Positions 26,767-44,972 of a stretch of DNA of 64,000 nt are shown here, piece by piece. How positions within the stretch are numbered: position 1 is the stretch's first letter; each line of letters starts with the position of its first letter. The notes below the pieces were generated by a model, which was not told where the DNA came from, made no database searches, and was given only the letters and a program-made list of their open reading frames with translations. This DNA comes from Clostridia bacterium (GTDB lineage Bacteria; Bacillota; Clostridia; Oscillospirales; Acutalibacteraceae). Location of the stretch: contig JAFXAK010000022.1 in the NCBI GenBank assembly GCA_017517135.1, forward strand, positions 1 to 64,000. Reading direction: 5' to 3'. The translations under genes were made by a program, and so were the position numbers.

Positions 26767-27609
26767 ATGGAAAATGCAGAAAAAAAACAGCTTAAAAAAA
26801 TAGCCTGCAATGTCAGAAAGGGCATTATTGAAGGCACATTTAATGCTAAAAGCGGACATCCCGGCGGCTCTCTTTCAATTGCAGATGTGTTGACATATCT
26901 CTATTTCAAGGAAATGAATGTTGATCCTAAGGATCCTAAAAATGAAAAGAGAGACCGTTTTGTTCTTTCAAAGGGACATGCTGCTCCCGCTCTTTATGCC
27001 ACACTTGCTCACAAGGGCTTTTTCCCTGTTGAAGACCTTAAAACTCTTCGTAAATCCGATTCATATCTTCAGGGACATCCCAATATGAATTATGTTCCCG
27101 GTGTTGATATGAGCACAGGCTCTTTAGGTCAGGGTATCTCCGCGGCATGCGGCTTTGCTCTTGCTTCAAAAATAGAAAACGATTCCTTCAGAGTGTATAC
27201 CGTTCTCGGTGACGGTGAAATTCAGGAAGGTCAGGTATGGGAAGCAGCTATGTTTGCCGCTGCTAAAAAGCTTGACACTCTTACAGTTATTGTTGACAAT
27301 AACAATCTTCAGATAGACGGCAGCATTGAAGAGGTAAACTCTCCCTATCCCATTCCCGAAAAATTTGCTTCCTTCGGCTTCAATGTAATTGAAATCAACG
27401 GTCATTGCTTTGATGAAATAGAAGCCGCTTTCAATCAGGCAAAGGCTTGTAAGGGTAAGCCTACAGCAATTGTTATGACAACCGTAAAGGGTAAAGGCGT
27501 TTCATTTATGGAAAATCAGGTAAGCTGGCACGGCTCTGCTCCCAACAAAGAGCAGTATGATATTGCTATGGCTGAGCTTGACAATGCTCTCAAAGAGCTT
27601 GAAGCATAA
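26767..27609 (+). CDS. Transketolase, N-terminal (TPP-binding) subunit
   Basis: Half of a split transketolase, which moves a two-carbon ketol unit between sugar phosphates in the pentose phosphate pathway. SGHPGGSLSIAD, LSKGHAAPALYA and the TPP/Mg motif GDGEIQEGQVWEA ending in DNNNLQIDG are all present. 280 residues, without the pyrimidine-binding domain, which the next gene supplies. The promoter is not obvious, so it may be read from the lspA-rluD transcript. A divergent homologue is encoded at 42218. This copy is more likely to be the housekeeping enzyme because the other lies in a dedicated operon (inference). Confidence 0.93.
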   Translation: MENAEKKQLKKIACNVRKGIIEGTFNAKSGHPGGSLSIADVLTYLYFKEMNVDPKDPKNEKRDRFVLSKGHAAPALYATLAHKGFFPVEDLKTLRKSDSYLQGHPNMNYVPGVDMSTGSLGQGISAACGFALASKIENDSFRVYTVLGDGEIQEGQVWEAAMFAAAKKLDTLTVIVDNNNLQIDGSIEEVNSPYPIPEKFASFGFNVIEINGHCFDEIEAAFNQAKACKGKPTAIVMTTVKGKGVSFMENQVSWHGSAPNKEQYDIAMAELDNALKELEA

Positions 27610-27626
27610 TAAGGGAGGAAATAATA

Positions 27627-28574
27627 ATGGCAGATATAATTAAAACCGCTACCAGAGATGCTTACGGTAAAGCATTGGTAGAATTAGGCGAAAAGAATGA
27701 TAAGGTTATTGTTTTTGATGCTGACCTTGCAGCTGCAACAAAAACAGGTATGTTCAAAAAGGCATTTCCCGACCGTTTTTATGACACAGGTATTGCAGAG
27801 GGCAATATGATGGGTGTTGCAGCAGGTCTTGCAACCTGCGGCTATACTGTTTTTGCAAGCTCCTTTGCTATGTTTGCAGCAGGCAGAGCCTTTGAACAGA
27901 TAAGAAACACAATCGGTTATCCCCATATAAATGTAAAAATCGGTGCAACACATGCAGGTATTTCCGTCGGTGAGGACGGAGCAAGCCATCAGTGCTGTGA
28001 GGATATCGCATTGATGCGTACAATCCCCGGTATGACAATAATCAACCCCGCAGACGATGTTGAAGCAAGACTTGCAGTTCTCGCTGCCGCTGAAATGCAG
28101 GGCCCCGTATATATGCGATTCGGCAGACTTGCAGTACCGCGTGTGTTTGATGAAAATTATAAATTTGAAATCGGCAAGGGAACATATCTTGCAAAGGGAA
28201 GCGATGTAACAATTGTTGCAACAGGTCTGATGGTTGAAAGAGCCATTGCCGCTGTTGAGCTTCTCAAGGCAGAGGGCATCAATGCATCTCTTATCAATAT
28301 GGCAACAATCAAGCCCATTGACAAGGATATTCTTCTTGATGCCGCAAAAACAACAGGCTGTATTGTTACGGCAGAAGAGCACAGCGTTATCGGAGGTCTC
28401 GGTAGTGCAGTTGCTGAAGCACTCGCAGAAACCTATCCCGTACCCGTTCTTCGTGTCGGTGTTGAAGATACCTTCGGTAAGTCAGGTCCTGCTCTTGAGC
28501 TTCTTGAAATCTTCGGACTTAATGCAGCTAATATTGTTGAAAAAGCTAAAAAGGCAATCGCTTTGAAAAAATAA
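27627..28574 (+). CDS. Transketolase, C-terminal subunit
   Basis: Supplies the pyrimidine-binding and C-terminal domains of the split transketolase. [33 protein letters not shown] (with the TPP-activating Glu), [16 protein letters not shown] and [15 protein letters not shown] are typical. 315 residues. GGGAGG precedes the start, 17 bases after the N subunit. The two proteins should form an alpha2beta2 enzyme. rhaA follows 19 bases downstream, so sugar catabolism and carbon rearrangement may share a transcript. Confidence 0.93.
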
Positions 28575-28593
28575 AATCCGGAGGAAATATTTT

Positions 28594-29844
28594 ATGTCTT
28601 CTGAAATGTATAATAACGCAAAGGCTTTATATAAGACCATTGGTATAGATACCGATGAAGTATTGAAAAAGCTCGGAAATGTATCAATTTCAATGCATTG
28701 CTGGCAGGGTGACGATGTAGGCGGCTTTGAGAGCAATGAAGCTCTTTCGGGCGGAATTCAGGCAACGGGTAATTATCCCGGCAAGGCTTCAACTCCCGAG
28801 GAGCTTATGAGCGATATTGATAAGGTGCTTTCTCTCGTTCCCGGTAAGCACCGCATTAATCTGCATGCAAGCTATGCTTTTTATGACGGAGAAAAGGTAA
28901 GCCGTGATAAGCTTGAGCCTCAGCATTTTGATAAATGGATTGAATTTGCAAAGGAAAGAGATTTAGGTCTTGATATAAACCCCACCCTCTTTTCACATCC
29001 TTTAGCTTCTGACGGTCTGACACTTTCTCATCCTGATGAGAATATCCGCCGCTTCTGGATAGAGCATTGCAAGGCAATAAGAAAAATCGGTGCATATATA
29101 GGTGAAAAGCTCGGCAAAACCTGTCTTAACAACATATGGATTCCCGACGGATACAAGGAAAATCCTGCTGACAGACTTTCTCCGAGAGCGCGTCTTAAAG
29201 CCTCTCTCGATGAAATATTCAGCGTAGAATACGATAAGAAGTATCTTGTTGACAGCGTTGAATCCAAGGTTTTCGGTATCGGTGTTGAATCATATACCGT
29301 AGGTTCACACGAATTTTATATGAATTATGCCGCAAAGAACGGTTGTATGTGTCTGCTTGATAACGGACACTATCATCCCACCGAAAGTGTTGCAGATAAA
29401 ATTCCCTCAATGCTTCTTTTCTCTGATAAGGTTGCTTTGCATGTAACAAGAGGTGTCCGTTGGGACAGCGACCATGTTGTTGCTTTCAACGATGAATTGC
29501 AGGATATTGCAAGAGAAATAGTCCGCTGTGACGCTCTTGACAGAGTTCTTATCGGTCTTGACTATTTCGATGCAAGTATTAACCGTATTGCCGCGTGGGT
29601 TATCGGTATGAGAAATATGCAAAAAGCCTTGCTTGCCGCTATGCTTGTTCCTCATACACAACTGGCTGAGTTACAGAATAAAGGTGATTTCACCGCTATG
29701 TTTGCTCTGAGTGAGGAATACAAAAATTATCCTATGAGTGTTGTGTGGGATTATTTCTGTGAAATAAACGGTGTTCCTGTAAGGGAAGCTTGGCTTGACG
29801 AAGTCAGAAAATACGAAAAAGAAGTTCTTAATGAAAGGAAATGA
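28594..29844 (+). CDS. rhaA: L-rhamnose isomerase
   Basis: Interconverts L-rhamnose and L-rhamnulose in the cytoplasm with divalent metal. The N-terminal [17 protein letters not shown] is diagnostic. The metal and substrate region includes [40 protein letters not shown] and DNGHYHPTE. 416 residues, like the E. coli enzyme. GGAGG precedes the ATG. The aldolase gene follows, but no rhamnulokinase or rhamnose regulator is in the window, so phosphorylation must be encoded elsewhere or done by another kinase. Confidence 0.97.
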
Positions 29845-29851
29845 CAGTAAA

Positions 29852-30673
29852 ATGAAATCTCCTCTTGAATTAAGAGTAATGCAGGAATTTATTGAAACCT
29901 GCACAATATCGTGGCAAAAGGGCTGGAACGAAAGAAACGGCGGCAATATGTCCTACAGAATGAAGGACGAGGAGGTTGACGCGGTAAAGCAGTTTTTCAG
30001 CTTTGATAAGCCCTTTGTGAAAATAGGCTTGAAGGTCCAAAATCTTGCAGGCGAGTTTTTTATAGTAACGGGAAGCGGAAAGTGCTATAAGAATGTTGCA
30101 AAATATCCCGAGGACAATATCTGTATAGCTCAGATAGACGAAACGGGTGAAAGCTACAGAATTGTGTGGGGACTTGTAAACGGCGGTAAGCCCACAAGTG
30201 AATTTTCCACACATCTTCTCAACCATTCTGTAAAAAAGGAAGCAACTGACGGTAAGTTCAGACTTATAATGCATGCACACCCCGTAAATACAGTTGCTCT
30301 TACATTTATTCTGCCCCTTGATTCCAAGGTATTTTCAAGAGAGCTTTGGGAAATGATGCCCGAATGTGCATTTGTTTTCCCCGAAGGTCTCGGAGTGTTA
30401 CCCTGGATGCTCTGCGGAGGAACAGAGATAGCATATGCTACAGGTGAGCTTATCAGAAGATTCAATACGGTAATCTGGGCTCATCACGGTGTATTCACAA
30501 GCGGTCCCGATTTTGACGAAGCCTTCGGCATAATGGAAACAGTTGAAAAGGCTGCCGAGATGCTTGTAAAGGTAATTTCCTGCGGAGGAAAGCGTCAGAC
30601 AATGAAAAAAGAGCAGATTCTTGCACTTTCTGAAAATTACGATGTCAATATTGACAAAACTTTGCTTGAATAA
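29852..30673 (+). CDS. rhaD: Rhamnulose-1-phosphate aldolase
   Basis: A zinc-dependent class II aldolase that splits L-rhamnulose 1-phosphate into DHAP and L-lactaldehyde. The RhaD-specific text includes GWNERNGGNMSYR, FIVTGSGKCYKNV, HAHPVNTVALTF and WAHHGVFTSGPDFDEAFG, covering the zinc histidines. Starting at 29852 gives 273 residues, the E. coli length. In-frame ATGs at 29831 and earlier lie inside rhaA. The ribosome binding site AAAGGA overlaps the rhaA stop. The operon seems to end here, and a new promoter lies at 30704. Confidence 0.96.
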   Translation: MKSPLELRVMQEFIETCTISWQKGWNERNGGNMSYRMKDEEVDAVKQFFSFDKPFVKIGLKVQNLAGEFFIVTGSGKCYKNVAKYPEDNICIAQIDETGESYRIVWGLVNGGKPTSEFSTHLLNHSVKKEATDGKFRLIMHAHPVNTVALTFILPLDSKVFSRELWEMMPECAFVFPEGLGVLPWMLCGGTEIAYATGELIRRFNTVIWAHHGVFTSGPDFDEAFGIMETVEKAAEMLVKVISCGGKRQTMKKEQILALSENYDVNIDKTLLE

Positions 30674-34710: not shown

Positions 34711-35313
34711 TTATTTTTCTGTTGAAAGGTTTTTTATTTCATCCGGTCTGTTTGACATATAAAATTCTGTAATATATTTAGCACATTCTTCGGCGGAGAT
34801 ATCAAGCTTTCCGCTAAGCCAATGGAATATTACCGATTTTAATGCTCCGAGAGTGTAAATAATGTATGTTCTGGCTTTTGATAAGCTTTCGGGCGGGAAT
34901 ATTTCAACCACCTGAGAAGCAAATTTTTCCTCCAGACAGGCAATTATTCTGTTTACAAACTTTTCGGCTTCATTGGATAAAAGGAAAGACGAGTATTCTT
35001 TCTTGTGCGAATCAAGATAGTTCATTGCAAGGGTAAAAGCAAGCGTAGGATCTGCAATAATATTTTCTATTCCTATTTTTGTGATAGCATAGTCTATTGA
35101 TTCGATAATGCTTGTCTGCAATGAGGAATAGAGGTCATAAATATCAAAGTAGTGAGCATAAAATGTTCCGCGTGAAATGCCTGCTTTTTCAACCACATCC
35201 GTAACCGTTATTTTGCTGAGCTCTTTTTCGGCAAGCAGCTGTGTGAAAGCGTATTTTATCAGAGTTTTGGAACGCAGAGCATTTTTGTGCTCTGATTTTT
35301 TTTCAGATGCCAT
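34711..35313 (-). CDS. TetR family transcriptional regulator
   Basis: A 200-residue one-domain repressor. The N-terminal helix-turn-helix reads FTQLLAEKELSKITVTDVVE, then AGISRGTFYAHYFDIYDL, a textbook TetR DNA-binding segment. The ligand domain is helical and unassigned. It is the last gene of the minus-strand operon with the aminotransferase and the tandem aldolase, so it probably regulates that operon. It might also act on the five-gene operon at 40168, which has a palindromic site near its promoter. That link is inference. Confidence 0.9.
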   Translation of the reverse strand: MASEKKSEHKNALRSKTLIKYAFTQLLAEKELSKITVTDVVEKAGISRGTFYAHYFDIYDLYSSLQTSIIESIDYAITKIGIENIIADPTLAFTLAMNYLDSHKKEYSSFLLSNEAEKFVNRIIACLEEKFASQVVEIFPPESLSKARTYIIYTLGALKSVIFHWLSGKLDISAEECAKYITEFYMSNRPDEIKNLSTEK

Positions 35314-35332
35314 CAGAAACTATCCCCTGAAA

Positions 35333-36550
35333 TTATTTTGACTTTTTTGAATACTTTGTCTTGTAAACAATTCTCATAAGAGCGCTTTCAAGCAGATTTA
35401 TGGGCTTGTTGTCTGTGCCGTAAATATTAGCGGCAACTGCAGCCTTACAGCCCTTTTCTGTTACAAGCTTAACTGCATTTGCTTCGTCTTCGTTTGCACC
35501 CACACAAACAGCACCGTTGTTTTTAAGAAGAACGGCATCTCTTGATTTAAGAGCCTTTGTAACAGCCTTAGCAGTCTTCAGGGAGTTGTTGGGGGAGTAA
35601 TCAACATTTTTAACGGTGATTCCTGCAATCTGTGCAAAGTCATCAAGGAATGGACGGATAGTTTTTCCTATTTTTGAAACAGAAAGAACATCCTCCTCCT
35701 TTGTATGGATAACTGCATTGACATCCTCGCGTTTTTTGTATATTGCACTGTGCAGTACTGCTGTTTCGGGGCAGTCGGCTGTTTTGTCAACAGGCTCACC
35801 GCTTGCAATATCAATCATTACGCTTTCTCCGCCGTTAACAGGAGTCATTCTGATTGCACCGTATTCTCTTGTTGAATTATAAGCTTCGTATTCAACAGTT
35901 GAGGTTGAAGTCATAAGATTGTTTGCAACATATTCGCTGAGAGAATTGAAGCTGTCAACTGTTTTTCCGGTAAGCTCTCTGTATCTTTCAAGAAGAGCTG
36001 CCTTTGAAACCTCTTCAAGCTCATTTGCAACGGCAAAAGCATCGTCAAGGTCTGTGCCTACGCATAACGCACCGTGATGTATCATAAGAACAGCCTTTGA
36101 ATCCGAGCGCTTAAGTGCAGCAACAACACCCTTTTTGAGCTTTCCTGTGCCGGGAAGACCGTAGGAGGCAATAGGCACATCAGTACCTATAATTTCCGCA
36201 GATTTCCCTGTGATATTGTTTATATCAAGACCTGAAAGCCCAACAATAGAAGCATAGGTCTGATGTGTGTGAATAACAAAATTAACATCACTTCTTAATG
36301 CATAGCACTGTGCGTGAATACCTTTTTCTGATGAAGGCTTGACTTCTCCCTCATAGCTTAAATCGTTTATTGTTACTATAACAATATCTTCGGGGGTAAG
36401 AGTCAGATATCCTTTGCCGCTGGGAGTGATAACAAAATGATTATCGTCAATTCTGCAGCTGACATTTCCCCAGGTTCTCTGAATAAGACCGTTTTCAACG
36501 AGCATCTTTCCGGCATTGATAACGGCAAGCTTTGCTTCTAAAATATCCAT
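35333..36550 (-). CDS. Tandem class II aldolase/adducin protein with a degenerate second half
   Basis: Two class II aldolase domains are fused. The first (about residues 1-200) is complete: the zinc ligands are H94 and H96 in IHTHQTY and H159 in HHGALCVG, E75 is the candidate catalytic acid, and WGNVSCR and ITPSGKGY bind the substrate phosphate region. The second (about 225-390) keeps E262 and H282 but has K284 and N345 where zinc histidines should be (HTK and NNGAVCVG), so it is probably non-catalytic. Family members cleave or form sugar 1-phosphates such as fuculose phosphate or decarboxylate. The substrate here is unknown. It lies between the aminotransferase gene and tetR. Confidence 0.85.
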   Translation of the reverse strand: MDILEAKLAVINAGKMLVENGLIQRTWGNVSCRIDDNHFVITPSGKGYLTLTPEDIVIVTINDLSYEGEVKPSSEKGIHAQCYALRSDVNFVIHTHQTYASIVGLSGLDINNITGKSAEIIGTDVPIASYGLPGTGKLKKGVVAALKRSDSKAVLMIHHGALCVGTDLDDAFAVANELEEVSKAALLERYRELTGKTVDSFNSLSEYVANNLMTSTSTVEYEAYNSTREYGAIRMTPVNGGESVMIDIASGEPVDKTADCPETAVLHSAIYKKREDVNAVIHTKEEDVLSVSKIGKTIRPFLDDFAQIAGITVKNVDYSPNNSLKTAKAVTKALKSRDAVLLKNNGAVCVGANEDEANAVKLVTEKGCKAAVAANIYGTDNKPINLLESALMRIVYKTKYSKKSK

Positions 36551-36612
36551 AATCTTTTCACCTTTTCAAAAAACAGGAGCCGTGCTGAACAGCTCCTCTT
36601 CCTTATCTTAAA

Positions 36613-38088
36613 TTATTCTTTAACAGCAATCTGAGAGAATACCTTATCAAAACGGGTAAGAGCATCGTCAATTGCTTCTTCTGTGTATGCAGCACTTGTG
36701 TAAAGACGGCTGCCTGCAAGAGTAACAATACCTTCAGCCATATATGCGGCACCCATATGAGTCATTTCTTTCTTTCTGATATCTGTTGCCTTAAGAACAG
36801 CGGGGATAGTCCAGGGCTTTGACCAGTCAATAGCGAACTGAAGAGTACCTACTGTTTCCATATGGCAGATTGAACCCTGATTGAATGCTACGAAGGGAAG
36901 GTGACGCTTAGCAATGATTTCCTGAAGTCCCTTTGTGATTCTGTCACCCATTTCGCCTGCCTTCTGGCAAGCATTTGTTCTGTCAATTTCTTCGAGTGTG
37001 AAGTAACCTGCTGCACAGCTCAAGGGGTTAGCTGAAAGAGTACCGCCTGTGAAAGCCTTCTTGACCTTAACGGCACCGTCAAGACCTGCACCGAGATATT
37101 TCATATATTCCTTTTTACCGCCGACACCGCCTGCACCGGGATATCCGCCTGCGATAACCTTACCGAAGATAGTAAGGTCAGGAGAACAGCCGAAGTAGCC
37201 CTGAGCACCTGCCATACCGACACGGAAGCCTGTAACAACCTCATCGAATACGAGAAGAGCACCGTACTTTCTGCAAAGTCTTTCAACGCCCTTGCAGAAG
37301 TTAGCATCAACGGGACGGGAACCGCTTTCGGGACCGAGGGGTTCAAGATAAACAGCAGCTGTGCCGCCTCTTAAGAGGTTAAGACGAAGCACTCTTTCAA
37401 GAGAATCCAGGTCACCGGGGAAGAATTCCTGAGTATCTCTCATAATACGCGCGGGAACACCGTTTGCCTGAGTGAACTTTGTGCCGGGAATACGGATGCC
37501 GTAGCCGAGCTGATCTGACCAGCCGTGGTAAGCACCGCCCATTTTAACTATGTTCTTATTCTTTGTTGCAAGACGGGCAATTCTTGCTGCAACCATACAA
37601 GCCTCTGTACCTGACTGGAGCATACGGAACATATCAACTGTTTCAATGCTGTCTGCCACTTTCTTAGCAAGCTTATATTCAAATTCGTGGAAAAGACCTG
37701 TGGAGGGACCGCAGGTGTTAAGTACATCAATAACCTGTTCGCGGATACAAGCGGGGTTTGAGCCGAGAACTGTGGGACCGCCAGCCTGAAGGAAGTCATA
37801 ATATTCGTTGCCGTCTATATCATAGAGCTTGTAGCCGTCTGCCTTTGTGAAAACAAGGGGGAAGGGATAGTTGAATGCAAGGTTGTGCTGAACACCGCCG
37901 GGGATGATCTGCTTAGCTTCGCTGATCATTGCCTTTGACTTTGCACATTTCTTTTCAAAGTATTCTTCTTCATATTTCTTGAGAGCTTCGTCTTCGATTG
38001 TGTAAACAGGTTTTTTGATAAGCTCATCAAGTGCATTGTTTATTTTCGCTGCATCGGGGTACTGGGAAATTGCAAAACGAGTATCCAT
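36613..38088 (-). CDS. Class III aminotransferase (glutamate-1-semialdehyde aminomutase-like)
   Basis: A PLP enzyme of the ornithine/GSA aminotransferase group. The PLP lysine is K310 in FGKVIAGGYP and the ring-nitrogen aspartate is D282 in FDEVVTGFR. The block IIPGGVQHNLAFNYPFPLVF and the SGTEAC phosphate loop are typical. 491 residues, with an N-terminal extension of about 50 residues beyond the GSA aminomutase core. No other haem-synthesis gene is nearby, so tetrapyrrole synthesis is unlikely. It heads an operon with the tandem aldolase and TetR genes. AGGAGG lies 8 bases before the ATG. The substrate is unknown, but a keto-sugar or ketone amination fits the neighbours. Confidence 0.88.
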   Translation of the reverse strand: MDTRFAISQYPDAAKINNALDELIKKPVYTIEDEALKKYEEEYFEKKCAKSKAMISEAKQIIPGGVQHNLAFNYPFPLVFTKADGYKLYDIDGNEYYDFLQAGGPTVLGSNPACIREQVIDVLNTCGPSTGLFHEFEYKLAKKVADSIETVDMFRMLQSGTEACMVAARIARLATKNKNIVKMGGAYHGWSDQLGYGIRIPGTKFTQANGVPARIMRDTQEFFPGDLDSLERVLRLNLLRGGTAAVYLEPLGPESGSRPVDANFCKGVERLCRKYGALLVFDEVVTGFRVGMAGAQGYFGCSPDLTIFGKVIAGGYPGAGGVGGKKEYMKYLGAGLDGAVKVKKAFTGGTLSANPLSCAAGYFTLEEIDRTNACQKAGEMGDRITKGLQEIIAKRHLPFVAFNQGSICHMETVGTLQFAIDWSKPWTIPAVLKATDIRKKEMTHMGAAYMAEGIVTLAGSRLYTSAAYTEEAIDDALTRFDKVFSQIAVKE

Positions 38089-40010: not shown

Positions 40011-40030
40011 TTGTCATGTCTGAAGAGTGA

Positions 40031-40059
40031 ATTGTCGGTTGAAAAATCGGCAATTTTTT
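40031..40059 (+). terminator. Terminator of the small peptide unit
   Basis: ATTGTCGGTT (40031-40040) pairs with AATCGGCAAT (40045-40054) with two G-T pairs over a GAAA tetraloop, followed by a T-tract. Confidence 0.8.
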
Positions 40060-40089: not shown

Positions 40090-40118
40090 TTGACTTTACT
40101 GCACAAGTTTGTTAATAT
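40090..40118 (+). promoter_or_regulatory. Promoter of the SCP2-aminotransferase-transketolase operon
   Basis: TTGACT (40090-40095), a 17-base spacer and TAATAT (40113-40118), 50 bases before the TTG start at 40168. Confidence 0.68.
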
Positions 40119-40167: not shown

Positions 40168-40929
40168 TTGACAGATTCAAAGACTCTTGCATACATAAAT
40201 ATGTATGCGGTTCTCGGAACTCTTGAAAACCTTTGCGAACTTGATGAAAACGCAAGAGCTTTGCTCAAAAACAAAAAGCCTGTATCTATAGGTCTTGAGG
40301 TTAAGGACGGACCTGCAGCAACGCTTATGTTCAAGAACGGCTACTGCCGTATGGAGGACGGCTGCAGAAGTGATTGTACCATAAAAATTCCTTTCTCATC
40401 CTGTGAGAAGTTCAACGGAATGATTGACGGTACCGTTACACCTGTTCCCACAAAAGGTCTTATGCATATCGGATTTTTGCTCAAGAGCTTTATTCCGCTT
40501 ACTGACCTTCTTTCAAAGTATATGCGTCCCGATCCCAAGGATCTTGAAGACAGAGCTTTCTTTGAAATGAGCACCACGCTTATGTTCTATACAATTGCTG
40601 TGGCAATTGCTCAGATCGGTAATAATGATGCAATCGGTAAATTCAGTGCAGATCATATTGTTGACGGTGATATTCTTATGTCAATAGGAGATAAGATCAG
40701 CGCTACAATCAGATGCAAGAATCACCGTCTTATCACAATCAAAAAGGATATGGGCACTCCCAGATCACTTATGAAATTCTGTGATATGGATCTTGCAAGA
40801 GCATTGTTTGACGGAAAAGTCAATGCCGTTGCCTGCATCGGTGAAGGCACCATTATTATGGGTGGTATGATTTCTATGATAGACAATGTCAACAGAATTC
40901 TTGACAGAGTTGCACTCTATCTTGCCTAA
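40168..40929 (+). CDS. SCP2-like protein, probably a tandem lipid-binding fold
   Basis: The sequence follows the SCP2 sterol/lipid-carrier pattern: a hydrophobic strand, a 'dG' turn (MFKNGYCRMEDGC), an acidic strand, then a helix ending in FNGMIDGTVTPVPTKGLMHIG. The second half repeats the pattern (ISATIRCKNHRLITIKKD, then ARALFDGKVNAVACIGEG and IIMGG), so two such domains may be fused. 253 residues, no signal peptide. The start is a TTG at 40168, 8 bases after AGGAGG. It heads the operon, and a homologous protein ends it at 44125. SCP2 folds bind fatty acyl chains, sterols or CoA esters. The ligand here is unknown and the fold assignment is by eye. Confidence 0.62.
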   Translation: MTDSKTLAYINMYAVLGTLENLCELDENARALLKNKKPVSIGLEVKDGPAATLMFKNGYCRMEDGCRSDCTIKIPFSSCEKFNGMIDGTVTPVPTKGLMHIGFLLKSFIPLTDLLSKYMRPDPKDLEDRAFFEMSTTLMFYTIAVAIAQIGNNDAIGKFSADHIVDGDILMSIGDKISATIRCKNHRLITIKKDMGTPRSLMKFCDMDLARALFDGKVNAVACIGEGTIIMGGMISMIDNVNRILDRVALYLA

Positions 40930-40943
40930 AGGAGGAATTGAAA

Positions 40944-42194
40944 ATGGCAATAAAGATTAATGATTACACAAAAAGCCGTGAGTGGTTTTCAAGAGCCACA
41001 AAGGTAATTCCTTCAGGCGTTTACGGACATTTAGGTCCTGCAGAAGGTAACTTTATGCCCGTAACCTCATTCCCTTTGATGGGTGACAGAGCACAGGGTA
41101 CATATTTCTGGGATGTTGACGGTAACAGATTTATAGATTATATGTGTGCATACGGTCCCAATGTTCTCGGTTATAACGATCCCGATGTTGATGCTGCAGC
41201 TATTGAGCAGCTCAAAAAGGGTAACTGTATGACATCTCCCTCATACAAAATGGTTGAATTTGCAGAGCTTATGGTTGATACCGTAAACTGTGCAGACTGG
41301 GCTTTCTTTGCAAAGAACGGTAACGATGTTACAACAGCCGCTATTATGACTGCCCGTAACGCAACACACCGCAAGAAGATTGTTTTTGTAAACGGCTTCT
41401 ATCACGGTGTTTCACCCTGGACACAGAAAATAGACTATCCCGGTGTTATCCCCGAGGATGTTGCAAATAACCTTTATATTGACTGGAATGATTTTGATCA
41501 GCTTCAGCAGGTTTTTGATGATAACAAGGGCGAAATTGCCGCATTTATCTCAACTCCCTATATGCACGGCAACTATCTTGATAACTCCCTTCCCGCAGAC
41601 GGCTACTGGAAGAAGGTAAGAGAGCTTTGCACAGCTAACGGAACAGTTCTTATTATAGATGATGTAAGAGCAGGCTTCAGACTTGATATCGCAGGCTCTG
41701 ACCATTTCTACGGCTTTGAGGCAGACCTTATCTGCTTCTGTAAGGCACTTGCAAACGGATACAATGTATCCTGCCTTTGCGGTAAGGATTTCCTCAAGGG
41801 AGCAGTAAGCGGTCTTTCATATACAGGCTCCTACTGGATGAGTGCAATGCCCTTTGCAGCAGGTATTGCCTGTGTAAACAAGATGAAGCAGCTCGACATT
41901 CCCACAATGTTCAGAGAAAAGGGACTTAAGCTCACAAACGGTCTTAAGGAAGCTGCAGCAAACAACGGCTTCAATCTGGTAGTTTCAGGCGAGCCCGCAC
42001 TGTTCTATCTTCGTATAGCTGATGACGATTCACTCTTTATTCATCAGGATTGGATTCAGGAATGTGTTAAGAGAGGTGTCTTCTTCGCGGGACATCATAA
42101 CCATTTCATCAATGCAGCACTCACAGATGAGGATATCAACTTTACTCTTGAGGTTGCAGACGAAGCATTCAAAGCAATAAGACCTAAATACTAA
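40944..42194 (+). CDS. Class III aminotransferase of the transketolase operon
   Basis: A PLP enzyme of the GSA-aminomutase/ornithine aminotransferase group. The Schiff-base lysine is K267 in FCKALANGY, the PLP aspartate pair is D239-D240 in IIDDVRAGFR, and the N-terminal VIPSGVYGHLGP with FWDVDGNRFIDYMCAYGPNV is typical. The usual D-E before V-x-x-G-F-R is D-D here. The start at 40944 is 8 bases after AAAGGAGG, while a TTG at 40938 is too close. 416 residues. It is only distantly like the aminotransferase at 36613. Between an SCP2-like gene and a transketolase pair, it probably aminates the ketol product or supplies its acceptor (inference). Confidence 0.88.
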   Translation: MAIKINDYTKSREWFSRATKVIPSGVYGHLGPAEGNFMPVTSFPLMGDRAQGTYFWDVDGNRFIDYMCAYGPNVLGYNDPDVDAAAIEQLKKGNCMTSPSYKMVEFAELMVDTVNCADWAFFAKNGNDVTTAAIMTARNATHRKKIVFVNGFYHGVSPWTQKIDYPGVIPEDVANNLYIDWNDFDQLQQVFDDNKGEIAAFISTPYMHGNYLDNSLPADGYWKKVRELCTANGTVLIIDDVRAGFRLDIAGSDHFYGFEADLICFCKALANGYNVSCLCGKDFLKGAVSGLSYTGSYWMSAMPFAAGIACVNKMKQLDIPTMFREKGLKLTNGLKEAAANNGFNLVVSGEPALFYLRIADDDSLFIHQDWIQECVKRGVFFAGHHNHFINAALTDEDINFTLEVADEAFKAIRPKY

Positions 42195-42217
42195 GAAAAA
42201 AAGAGGAGGAAAAGCAT

Positions 42218-43090
42218 ATGTCTTTAACCAAGCAGGAATGGCTTAAGCTTGAAGAAAAAGCCAATGATTTGCGTAATCTCACCCTCGATACAACATATTG
42301 GGCAGGTTCCGCACACATCGGTGGCGGTCTTAGTGTTCTTGACATTATGACTGTACTTTATCACAAATATATGAACATCAAGGTGGATGATCCCCAGTGG
42401 GCAGACCGTGACAGATTCATTCTTTCAAAGGGCCACGCAGGTGTATCATATGCCGCCACACTTTGTGATTACGGCTTCAATGATGTTGAACAGCTCAAAA
42501 CATTTAACCTCTACGGCTCAAAAATGGGTATGCATCTTGATTCCAATAAGGTTATCGGTGTTGATGCTTCAACAGGCTCTCTCGGACACGGTATGTCCAT
42601 AGCAGTAGGTACTGCTCTTGCAGCCCGTCTTCAGGGTAAGGACTACAAGACTTTCGTTGTTCTCGGTGACGGTGAATGTGACGAAGGCTCAAACTGGGAA
42701 GCAGCAATGAGTGCAGTTCACTACAAGACCACAAATATGATAAGCTTTGTTGACCGCAATAAATGTATGATTGACGGCAGAACAGAGGATGTTATGAATC
42801 TTGAGCCCTTCTGTGCAAAGTGGGAAGCTTTCGGATTCATTGTAAAGGAAATTGACGGTAACAACATCAAGGAGCTTTGCGAAGCTATTGATTTTGCTTA
42901 TGAAAATAAAACAGATAAGCCCGTTATGATTGTATGTAACACTCTTAAAGGCTGCGGTATTGACTTCATTGAAGACGATTACAAATGGCATTACGGTGCT
43001 TTTGATGATGAAAAATATGCAAAAGGTAAAGAAGCTCTCAAGGCATCATACGCTAAGCGTATTGCAAGAGTTGAAAAGGAGGCTAAATAA
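42218..43090 (+). CDS. Transketolase-like N-terminal subunit (second copy)
   Basis: Binds the pyrophosphate of TPP. HIGGGLSVLDIMTVLYHKYM, LSKGHAGVSYAATL and the TPP/Mg motif GDGECDEGSNWEA ending in DRNKCMIDG are intact, so it should be active. 290 residues. It differs from the 26767 copy around the acceptor site (YGSKMGMHLDSNK instead of the LQGHPNMNYVPG segment), which suggests another acceptor. GAGGAGG precedes the start. It is coupled to the C subunit, which starts 2 bases after its stop. Confidence 0.9.
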   Translation: MSLTKQEWLKLEEKANDLRNLTLDTTYWAGSAHIGGGLSVLDIMTVLYHKYMNIKVDDPQWADRDRFILSKGHAGVSYAATLCDYGFNDVEQLKTFNLYGSKMGMHLDSNKVIGVDASTGSLGHGMSIAVGTALAARLQGKDYKTFVVLGDGECDEGSNWEAAMSAVHYKTTNMISFVDRNKCMIDGRTEDVMNLEPFCAKWEAFGFIVKEIDGNNIKELCEAIDFAYENKTDKPVMIVCNTLKGCGIDFIEDDYKWHYGAFDDEKYAKGKEALKASYAKRIARVEKEAK

Positions 43091-43092
43091 GT

Positions 43093-44103
43093 ATGGCAGG
43101 CGGTTTAAGTTATACAGCTCTTGATTCTACATCACTTTCCACAGCGGAAATTTACGGTAAGGCACTTGTTGAGCTCGGAAGAGAGCATCCCGAGGTAGTT
43201 GCTCTTACTGCAGACCTTGCTAAGTCCACAAAAATCGGTGATTTCCAGAAGGAATTCCCTGACAGATTTTTCAATGTAGGTATAGCAGAACAGAATATGT
43301 TCGGTGTTGCTGCAGGTATGGCAAGAGCAGGTCTTGTTCCTTTCCTTTCAACCTTCTCACAGTTCGCTTCCTTGCGTTCTGCTGACCAGTTGTCAACAGA
43401 CCTTTGCTATCAGAATGTAAATGCAAAGGTAATTGCAACTCATTCAGGTACATCCTTCGGTCAGGCCGGTTCAACACACCACGCTATTTCTGACCTTGCT
43501 GTTACCCGTTCCTTCCCCAATCTCACAGTAATCTGTCCTGCTGACGGTATGGAAACATATAACGCAGTTATGGCTGCATACAACACACCCGGTCCGTTCT
43601 ATATCAGAATAAACCGCGGCTTTGACCGTGTTCTTTATAAGGATACCGATTACGGCTTTGAGGTAGGTAAGGCTGTAACCGTAAACGAGGGAACAGACCT
43701 CACAATCATTGCCTGCGGCTCATGTGTATTCCAGGCTGTTCAGGCTGCCGATTTCCTTGAAAAGGCAGACGGACTTAAGATCCGTGTTCTTGATATGCAC
43801 ACAATCAAGCCCATTGACAAGGAAGCTATTGTTAAGGCTGTTATGGATACACGCAGAATTATTACTGTTGAAGACCATAACATTGTTGGCGGTCTCGGTT
43901 CTGCCGTTGCAGAGGTTGTTGTTGAATCCGGTAAGGGTTGTGCATTCAAGAAACTCGGTGTTCAGGATAAATTTGCTCCTATAGGTCTTCATGAAGACAT
44001 TATGGCAGATCTCGGTATTGATGCTAACGGTATCATTGCTGCTGTCCGTGAGGTAATGAAGGCTGACTTTGAGCTTGATGACGACTGGGACGATGAGGTT
44101 TGA
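43093..44103 (+). CDS. Transketolase-like C-terminal subunit (second copy)
   Basis: The partner of the preceding gene, with the pyrimidine-binding domain (FNVGIAEQNMFGVAAGMARA, the activating Glu present), ATHSGTSFGQAGSTHHAISD and a C-terminal domain with [15 protein letters not shown]. 336 residues, about 20 longer than the copy at 27627, with an N-terminal leader and an acidic C-terminus (ELDDDWDDEV). The N and C subunits and both SCP2-like genes are tightly spaced, so this should be a dedicated two-subunit ketol transferase. Confidence 0.9.
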   Translation: MAGGLSYTALDSTSLSTAEIYGKALVELGREHPEVVALTADLAKSTKIGDFQKEFPDRFFNVGIAEQNMFGVAAGMARAGLVPFLSTFSQFASLRSADQLSTDLCYQNVNAKVIATHSGTSFGQAGSTHHAISDLAVTRSFPNLTVICPADGMETYNAVMAAYNTPGPFYIRINRGFDRVLYKDTDYGFEVGKAVTVNEGTDLTIIACGSCVFQAVQAADFLEKADGLKIRVLDMHTIKPIDKEAIVKAVMDTRRIITVEDHNIVGGLGSAVAEVVVESGKGCAFKKLGVQDKFAPIGLHEDIMADLGIDANGIIAAVREVMKADFELDDDWDDEV

Positions 44104-44124
44104 TTTTAGAAAGGGTTGATTTTA

Positions 44125-44937
44125 ATGGCATCTGAAGCTATTTATACTAATAAAATATTCCTTTGCGGTGCTTTGCCCCTTCTGAAGACTATTGTCGCTG
44201 ATGTTCCGTCACTCAATTCAAAATTCAAAAAAGTGCATTGCGTTTTTCAGGTAAGCTGTCTTGATCCTGACGCTCCCGACGGAAAATGGGCAACACACTT
44301 TGTTGTAAACGGTGACGAATGGAAGGTTCATGCAGATAAGGTTGCTTACAGAGTAGGCAAGCAGAAGTTTGTTGAGCTTGAATTCAAGAGCGTTGAAACC
44401 ATGAATGCATTTTTCAAGGGCAAAATAGGTCCCGCAACACTTCCCAAAATGAGAGGTGTGAATTTCATTTATGAATTCGGCGTATTTATGATGGCTCTTC
44501 TTAAAATGGCAGATCTTTTAGGTCTGGAAACTCCTCCCGAGGACGAAGATACAAAGCGTTTGCTTGTTAAGTGCTATTTCTATCTTCTTTCTGTCGGTAT
44601 TTCCACTCTTAATAAGCTCGGTCATGAGGCAATTCACGATTGGACTCTCAAGAGCCCTGACCGTGTTTATGCATGGAAGGTTGACGGCGAAGAAAGTGTT
44701 TCCGCTTATATCCGTATCAAAGCCGGTAAGTCAAAGGCAGGCAAGGGCGAATATAAGAGAGCTATGCCTTTCTTTACAATGAGATTCAACAATCTTGATT
44801 CTGCATTGGGCATACTGATGTCTACCGATGATATGCTTGAATCCGTTCGCGGCGGAAAGCTTATTATGGAAGGTGCACCTGAATTCGGTGCTCAGCTGGG
44901 TGACTATATGATGCAGATAGGCGCATACGCAAAATAA
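44125..44937 (+). CDS. Second SCP2-like protein of the operon
   Basis: Related in plan to the first gene of the operon: two successive SCP2-like halves. The first has HFVVNGDEWKVHADKVAYRV, the second SVSAYIRIKAGKSKAG, then RGGKLIMEGAPEFGAQLG. The first half ends with MNAFFKGKIGPATLPKMRGV, like the FNGMIDG block of the other protein. A hydrophobic segment (FMMALLKMADLLGLE) separates the halves. The ATG at 44125 is 9 bases after AAAGGG, while an in-frame TTG at 44116 abuts that site. 270 residues. It closes the operon at a strong terminator. The ligand is unknown. Confidence 0.58.
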   Translation: MASEAIYTNKIFLCGALPLLKTIVADVPSLNSKFKKVHCVFQVSCLDPDAPDGKWATHFVVNGDEWKVHADKVAYRVGKQKFVELEFKSVETMNAFFKGKIGPATLPKMRGVNFIYEFGVFMMALLKMADLLGLETPPEDEDTKRLLVKCYFYLLSVGISTLNKLGHEAIHDWTLKSPDRVYAWKVDGEESVSAYIRIKAGKSKAGKGEYKRAMPFFTMRFNNLDSALGILMSTDDMLESVRGGKLIMEGAPEFGAQLGDYMMQIGAYAK

Positions 44938-44944
44938 TATATCG

Positions 44945-44972
44945 CAGGGAGATGCAAAATCTCCCTGTTTTT
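44945..44972 (+). terminator. Terminator of the SCP2-transketolase operon
   Basis: CAGGGAGAT (44945-44953) pairs with ATCTCCCTG (44959-44967) over a 5-base loop, then TTTTT. No promoter is evident between it and the GH5 gene 31 bases on. Confidence 0.9.

Follow-up and report, generated by a model that had tools for sequence, protein, structure and literature searches.

A conserved five-gene operon of uncultured Clostridia pairs a FumI-like aminotransferase with an altered two-chain transketolase and may act on sphingoid bases

What could bring a class III aminotransferase and a complete two-chain transketolase together between two SCP2-like proteins? The question is raised by a five-gene operon at positions 40168–44937 of a 64,000-nucleotide stretch (hereafter, the window) of contig JAFXAK010000022.1, from the Clostridia bacterium assembly GCA_017517135.1 (Acutalibacteraceae). 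The five tightly spaced genes that an earlier reading, made from the letters alone (hereafter, the sequence-only reading), had described are present there as same-strand open reading frames (ORFs) in the order SA-AT-TN-TC-SB, in which SA and SB are the SCP2-like proteins, AT is the aminotransferase and TN and TC are the two transketolase chains. Judged from sequence comparisons, we propose that the operon probably acts on a long-chain 2-amino-1,3-diol, that is, a sphingoid base, through two reactions that could run in either direction; that it serves synthesis of such a base specifically is a claim we make tentatively.

Conservation of the five genes

Conservation of the five genes as a set had been chosen beforehand as the check on the sequence-only reading, which the outcome did not refute. 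SA was present in 37 of 150 genomes of the same family (the window's own genome counted), in 7 of 197 genomes of an order-level sample (the own genome and G021 being already among the family hits) and, by profile search, in 7 of 398 genomes of a phylum-level sample (own genome again counted). All five genes stood together in the same order in 32 of the 36 other same-family regions, including one in which SB is cut by the contig end (L046); the remaining regions end at a contig edge (L039, L062) or have no transketolase genes beside AT (L043, L069). A scan of species genomes for SB yielded 326 loci, and the best 80 of these all belonged to metagenome-assembled genomes or uncultured bacteria, from Clostridia, Oscillospiraceae and similar groups, many of them from the ruminant gut. 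The five genes occurred together in 68 of these best 80 loci; of the other 12, 11 begin at a contig end, and the last (L141) carries TN-TC-SB without SA-AT. No flanking gene recurs in a majority of the 36 family regions, where the neighbors vary.

SA-AT stands alone in four genomes (G043, G199, G494 and G022), each of which carries TN-TC-SB together elsewhere (L238–L241), and in the regions fetched SB was found only with transketolase genes. We read the operon as two modules, in which SA partners AT and SB partners TN-TC. A genome of 6.4 Mb (G553, locus L172) contains SA-AT and neither a transketolase module nor a serine palmitoyltransferase.

Relatives and active sites of the encoded proteins

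AT matches Pfam Aminotran_3 (123.8 bits), and its best match in the PDB is FumI of Sphingopyxis sp. MTA144, deposited as an 'aminopentol aminotransferase' (6hbs, E = 5.9e-86), followed by a glutamate-1-semialdehyde aminomutase (GSAM; E = 4e-47). The two proteins are identical at 154 of 399 aligned residues (38.6%) and share the segments DYMCAYGPN and DDVRAGFR; signatures that we took from this alignment, not from a curated motif, are present in 113 (DDVRxGF) and 109 (DYMC) of 117 full-length ATs. Against the NCBIfam model hemL AT scores 204.4 bits, below the cut-off of 527.3, and none of the AT, TN and TC matches reaches an NCBIfam cut-off. FumI is reported to transfer the C2 amino group of hydrolyzed fumonisin B1 to pyruvate (PMC2933618), and fumonisins are described as sphinganine-like (PMC9858248); the substrate of the nearest solved relative of AT is a sphinganine analogue. 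FumI-like proteins of 35–40% identity are also encoded on plasmids, with Variovorax, Novosphingobium, Agrobacterium, Shinella, Streptomyces and a haloarchaeon among the hosts; ABC transporter genes and regulators are frequent neighbors, and class II aldolase genes are present in 4 of the 9 regions viewed. Given these diverse contexts, similarity to FumI taken alone is unspecific, and we rejected it as evidence in its own right. On a plasmid of the haloarchaeon Haloprofundus salinisoli, a gene annotated with a ceramidase N-terminal domain (L237, 11751–13100) is found in the vicinity of ABC transporter genes and a FumI-like aminotransferase.

TN matches Pfam Transketolase_N (157.1 bits) and TC matches Transket_pyr (146.7 bits) and Transketolase_C (99.3 bits). 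The best PDB match of TC, and also of the housekeeping transketolase of the window, is the two-chain enzyme of Carboxydothermus hydrogenoformans (6yaj). The N-chains of the operon and of the housekeeping copy at 26767 are 43% identical, which bears out the earlier statement that the two enzymes are distinct. In an alignment to solved transketolases (E. coli numbering throughout; Arg358 and Asp469 are human 318 and 424), the window TC has Ala at both Arg358 and Asp469, and TN has Asn at Arg91. Among 118 TC rows, position 469 is Ala in 115, Gly in one (L176, a different transketolase) and a gap in two, and position 358 is Ala in 101, Ser in nine, Thr in two, Gly in two, Arg in one (L176 again) and a gap in three; position 91 is Asn in 112 of 114 TN rows, with one Arg and one gap. 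The four separate TN-TC-SB modules have Ala, Ala, Ala and Ser at position 469 and Asn at position 91 in every case, and two of them keep Arg358. Catalytic Glu411 and the active-site histidines are intact in all ungapped rows, and the housekeeping copies of 30 family loci keep Arg358, Asp469 and Arg91 without exception (30/30).

Because Asp469 is reported to form a salt bridge with Arg91 in E. coli transketolase (PMC5073344), both halves of one interaction have been lost, one in each chain. With D469A, the propanal/glycolaldehyde activity ratio of the E. coli enzyme rose from 0.04 to 0.20, and propanal is stated to be converted to 1,3-dihydroxypentan-2-one (PMC3657141), which is the five-carbon analogue of the ketone that we propose below. 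By these residues, the operon transketolase looks retuned to fatty aldehydes. The C. hydrogenoformans enzyme, although similarly split, keeps Asp469 (GEDG in the alignment, without the D469E change; PMC7661550), where the operon enzyme has Ala, with Asn at Arg91. The closest parallel is engineered: E. coli variants D469A/S/T/Y are changed at the same residue and favor non-hydroxylated aldehydes (PMC3657141, PMC5073344), but they are man-made and single-chain, take short or aromatic aldehydes and work without lipid carriers.

SA and SB of the window have no match to Pfam SCP2 (PF02036). Among their homologues, 26 of 37 SA proteins match SCP2 at E ≤ 5 (best 2.8e-7) and 2 of 31 SB proteins do so (best 0.002), and of ten distant SA/SB members five score above the Pfam cut-off, one just below it and four not at all. 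SA and SB are homologous to each other (hhalign probability 96, E = 4e-9), and the two halves of SA align as an internal tandem (probability 93.8, E = 3e-8); self-alignment of SB detected no internal repeat. PDB searches gave no match for the SA profile and a single one, at E = 0.71, for that of SB. The earlier description of two homologous, probably tandem SCP2-fold proteins therefore holds for their homology and for the tandem in SA, finds no support for a tandem in SB, and reaches SCP2 through the homologues and not through a direct match; we consider the SCP2 assignment right but weak for the window proteins themselves.

Exchange with serine palmitoyltransferase

In two genomes (G257 and G270) SA-AT is directly followed by a serine palmitoyltransferase and then a short-chain dehydrogenase/reductase (SDR), in the position usually taken by the transketolase genes. 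The best PDB match of the G257 enzyme is 3a2b, a serine palmitoyltransferase (E = 1.2e-129), and its score with that NCBIfam model is 536 bits (cut-off 640); for the SDR, the top NCBIfam model is that of 3-ketodihydrosphingosine reductase, with 228.8 bits (cut-off 400), so that neither gene reaches the curated threshold. Two further genomes (G184 and G189) carry a serine palmitoyltransferase and reductase-like pair elsewhere. In a midpoint-rooted tree of 47 of the 118 ATs, the ATs of these four genomes group with that of L062 in one clade (100/99), which lies among the transketolase-linked ATs.

To count serine palmitoyltransferases, we accepted matches of at least 450 bits and one 372-bit match cut by a contig end, and left out weaker ones, which we take to be BioF/Kbl-like; within the family 8 of 12 matches were counted, 11 having been inspected (G096 was left out of the inspection). 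Among the 48 SA-AT genomes, the transketolase module is present in 42 and absent from five, and G077 is unassigned since its contig ends behind AT. Serine palmitoyltransferase occurs in one of the 42 module-bearing genomes (G493) versus four of the five module-less ones (Fisher P = 1.4e-4, with genomes treated as independent, the four carriers being close kin in the AT tree). The best TN match in the module-less genomes has 35–42% identity, the level of a housekeeping transketolase. The window's own genome (94% complete) has no serine palmitoyltransferase at E ≤ 1e-30. Serine palmitoyltransferases are also found in uncultured relatives (L177–L184, L242–L244), with an adjoining ketosphinganine-reductase-like gene in L178, L179, L181 and L242–L244, and gut Clostridia that carry this enzyme are, by their sequences, apparent sphingolipid makers.

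Proposed reactions, alternatives and setting

Our proposal is a pair of coupled enzyme modules, served by one SCP2-like lipid carrier apiece, whose substrate would be sphinganine or a closely related compound. In one module, TN-TC with SB would take a two-carbon ketol unit from hydroxypyruvate or a ketose phosphate and join it to a fatty aldehyde, R-CHO, giving R-CHOH-CO-CH2OH; in the other, AT with SA would aminate this ketone to R-CHOH-CHNH2-CH2OH. A sphingoid base would thus arise with no need for serine palmitoyltransferase. We infer the sphingoid-base substrate because AT is nearest to FumI, because Asp469 and Arg91 are lost, because the homologues match SCP2 and because serine palmitoyltransferase takes the transketolase slot. 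The sequence-only reading had suggested a route from a long-chain aldehyde to a sphinganine-like product: its substrate class is upheld by these four observations, and its direction is not settled by them. We slightly favor synthesis over breakdown, because serine palmitoyltransferase replaces the module, the operon contains no uptake or regulatory gene, and the own genome has no serine palmitoyltransferase.

Several observations weigh against this proposal. FumI-like proteins of similar identity are common in soil bacteria in other contexts, and the operon transketolases conserve Ser385 and the presumed Arg520, residues at the entry or in contact with phosphate. No LuxC-type source of fatty aldehyde was found in the own genome; we rejected LuxC reductase as the aldehyde source, as it occurs in only 10 of 150 genomes, two of the ten being SA-bearing. 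One genome (G493) has both routes and another (G553) has neither. Within the family alone, avoidance of serine palmitoyltransferase (0 of 37 SA-bearing versus 8 of 113 other genomes) gives P = 0.20 and was dropped as evidence. AT seems superfluous beside a sphinganine-making serine palmitoyltransferase, yet it is retained, and neither direction explains well why it stays there.

The same reactions in reverse, serving to salvage or degrade sphingoid bases that come from the diet, the host or other bacteria, are a possibility that we consider rather doubtful. AT would pass the amino group to pyruvate, and the transketolase would split the 1,3-dihydroxy-2-ketone into a fatty aldehyde, which is released, and a two-carbon unit, which a sugar phosphate would accept; such a pathway would resemble FumI followed by a thiamine diphosphate (ThDP) enzyme. 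It accords with the reported deamination by FumI with pyruvate (PMC2933618), with an aldehyde dehydrogenase gene that follows TN-TC-SB in G199 and with a YqhD-like dehydrogenase gene after SA-AT in G022. Ceramidase-family genes are also enriched, being present in 21 of 37 SA-bearing versus 7 of 113 other family genomes (P = 2.7e-10), and operon-bearing G040 encodes a true neutral ceramidase of 967 residues (L223, 778–3681; PDB 2zws, E = 1.4e-52; GDISPN). However, the ceramidase-family matches mostly score 18–45 bits; the motif THxHS picked out seven proteins in 11 fetched regions, and GDxSPN is present in just one of them, from G040; and outside the family a ceramidase-family gene occurs in 2 of 11 SA-AT genomes and in none of the four with the operon. 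These weaknesses led us to reject the co-occurrence as proof of breakdown, which, moreover, would leave the serine palmitoyltransferase in place of the transketolase module senseless and would have to do with an operon that has no transporter. In the own genome, proteins resembling the ceramidase family were seen at L218 (1629–3485), L219 (1193–2809) and L220; such proteins, of which there are several to a genome, carry THxHS and lack GDxSPN, and that of L218 has no PDB match at E ≤ 1.

It is unlikely that the substrate of AT and the transketolase is, in place of a sphingoid base, some other hydrophobic or non-sugar amino-polyol destined for a lipid or secondary metabolite. The diverse contexts of FumI-like proteins would allow it, and loss of Asp469 would suit any aldehyde without an alpha-hydroxyl, but the same slot is taken by serine palmitoyltransferase with a ketosphinganine-reductase-like gene, and no further biosynthetic gene recurs. 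The amino-sugar alternative of the sequence-only reading, modeled on 3-amino-5-hydroxybenzoic acid (AHBA) clusters, gained nothing and was dropped: no kanosamine or aminoshikimate neighbors recur around the operon in the 36 regions, as judged by recurrence without a gene-by-gene search. Chance adjacency of a glutamate-1-semialdehyde-type aminotransferase and a second transketolase of the ordinary kind, which generic Pfam names and scores below all NCBIfam cut-offs would permit, is most improbable, since AT is much nearer FumI than GSAM (E = 6e-86 versus 4e-47) and the altered active site and the gene order, fixed amid changing flanks, speak against a standard transketolase.

The starts of AT and SB in Table 1 are the better ones by sequence and family alignment, and leave intergenic gaps of 14, 23, 2 and 21 bases. 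Terminator-like stems lie on both sides of the operon (upstream at 40029–40056), in a region with 9 such sites versus 4.0 expected. Of the single promoter and terminator noted earlier, the terminator has a candidate; the promoter-like match is at chance level (11 such sites versus 12.5 expected).

Table 1 Positions of the operon genes and flanking signals in the window
Feature	Position	Strand	Basis
SA: SCP2-like protein with tandem halves, 253 aa	40168..40929	+	Pfam SCP2 matches of homologues; self-alignment of halves
AT: FumI-like class III aminotransferase, 416 aa from ATG 40944	40944..42194	+	Pfam Aminotran_3; best PDB match 6hbs FumI
TN: transketolase ThDP-binding chain, Asn97 at Arg91 position	42218..43090	+	Pfam Transketolase_N; residue alignment
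TC: transketolase pyrimidine and C-terminal chain, Ala18/Ala125 at Arg358/Asp469 positions	43093..44103	+	Pfam; best PDB match 6yaj
SB: second SCP2-like protein, from ATG 44125	44125..44937	+	Homology to SA; distant member 33.8 bits, above Pfam SCP2 cut-off
Intrinsic terminator-like stem, 10 pairs then T run	44944..44968	+	Terminator scan
Promoter-like TTGACT-17-TAATAT	40090..40118	+	Consensus scan, not above chance

Divergent from the operon, the minus strand at 34711–38088 encodes a TetR-like regulator, a 405-residue class II aldolase (ALD) and a second class III aminotransferase (AT2), whose nearest PDB match is a GSAM. This AT2/ALD divergent pair adjoins the operon in 24 of the best 80 SB loci, with AT2 alone in one more, and also in L034, L049 and L067. 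We speculate that phytosphingosine would be a fitting substrate for deamination and retro-aldol cleavage by AT2/ALD, in parallel with sphinganine and cleavage by the transketolase. Within 26767–30673, the housekeeping two-chain transketolase has behind it, in the same orientation, ORFs that on inspection resemble rhamnose isomerase and rhamnulose-1-phosphate aldolase. The assembly has three transketolase pyrimidine domains: those of the operon TC and of the copy at 27645, and a third in a frame of 631 residues, presumably DXS.

The single families are already known, and the gene set fits no system that we found; titles and the starts of abstracts of open-licence PubMed Central (PMC) papers gave no described pathway with it. 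To our knowledge, FumI has no transketolase or SCP2 partner, and the known entry routes to sphingoid bases all use an alpha-oxoamine synthase. FumI also differs from the operon in being catabolic, with pyruvate as acceptor (PMC2933618). Serine palmitoyltransferase, which with 3-ketosphinganine reductase makes sphinganine, condenses serine with acyl-CoA. A non-classical bacterial route, SgaAB of Pseudomonas fluorescens MYb115, is reported to give polyketide-derived sphinganines, in this case with an alpha-oxoamine synthase (SgaB) and without a transketolase (PMC12134224). The terms transketolase and transamin are absent from a review of unusual sphingoid bases (PMC11765627), and a report on phytosphingosine from Flavonifractor plautii yielded no enzyme (PMC11914097).

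The sequence basis of our proposal is the conservation of the genes, the active-site losses and the swap between the transketolase module and serine palmitoyltransferase. Chemists have coupled transketolase and transaminase to obtain 2-amino-1,3-diols, and the operon would be a natural counterpart of that coupling, acting on lipids. In its full form, which we offer slightly more cautiously than synthesis as such, the proposal is that uncultured Clostridia may assemble sphingoid bases by joining a sugar-derived two-carbon unit to a fatty aldehyde, with a lipid-specialized transketolase, a FumI-like aminotransferase and dedicated SCP2-type carriers and no alpha-oxoamine synthase, by a route evolutionarily interchangeable with serine palmitoyltransferase. 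If this is true, a natural transketolase would be altered at the very residue that engineers change for non-sugar aldehydes, and surveys based on serine palmitoyltransferase would overlook sphingolipid makers (or users, if the reactions run backward) in the ruminant and hindgut flora.

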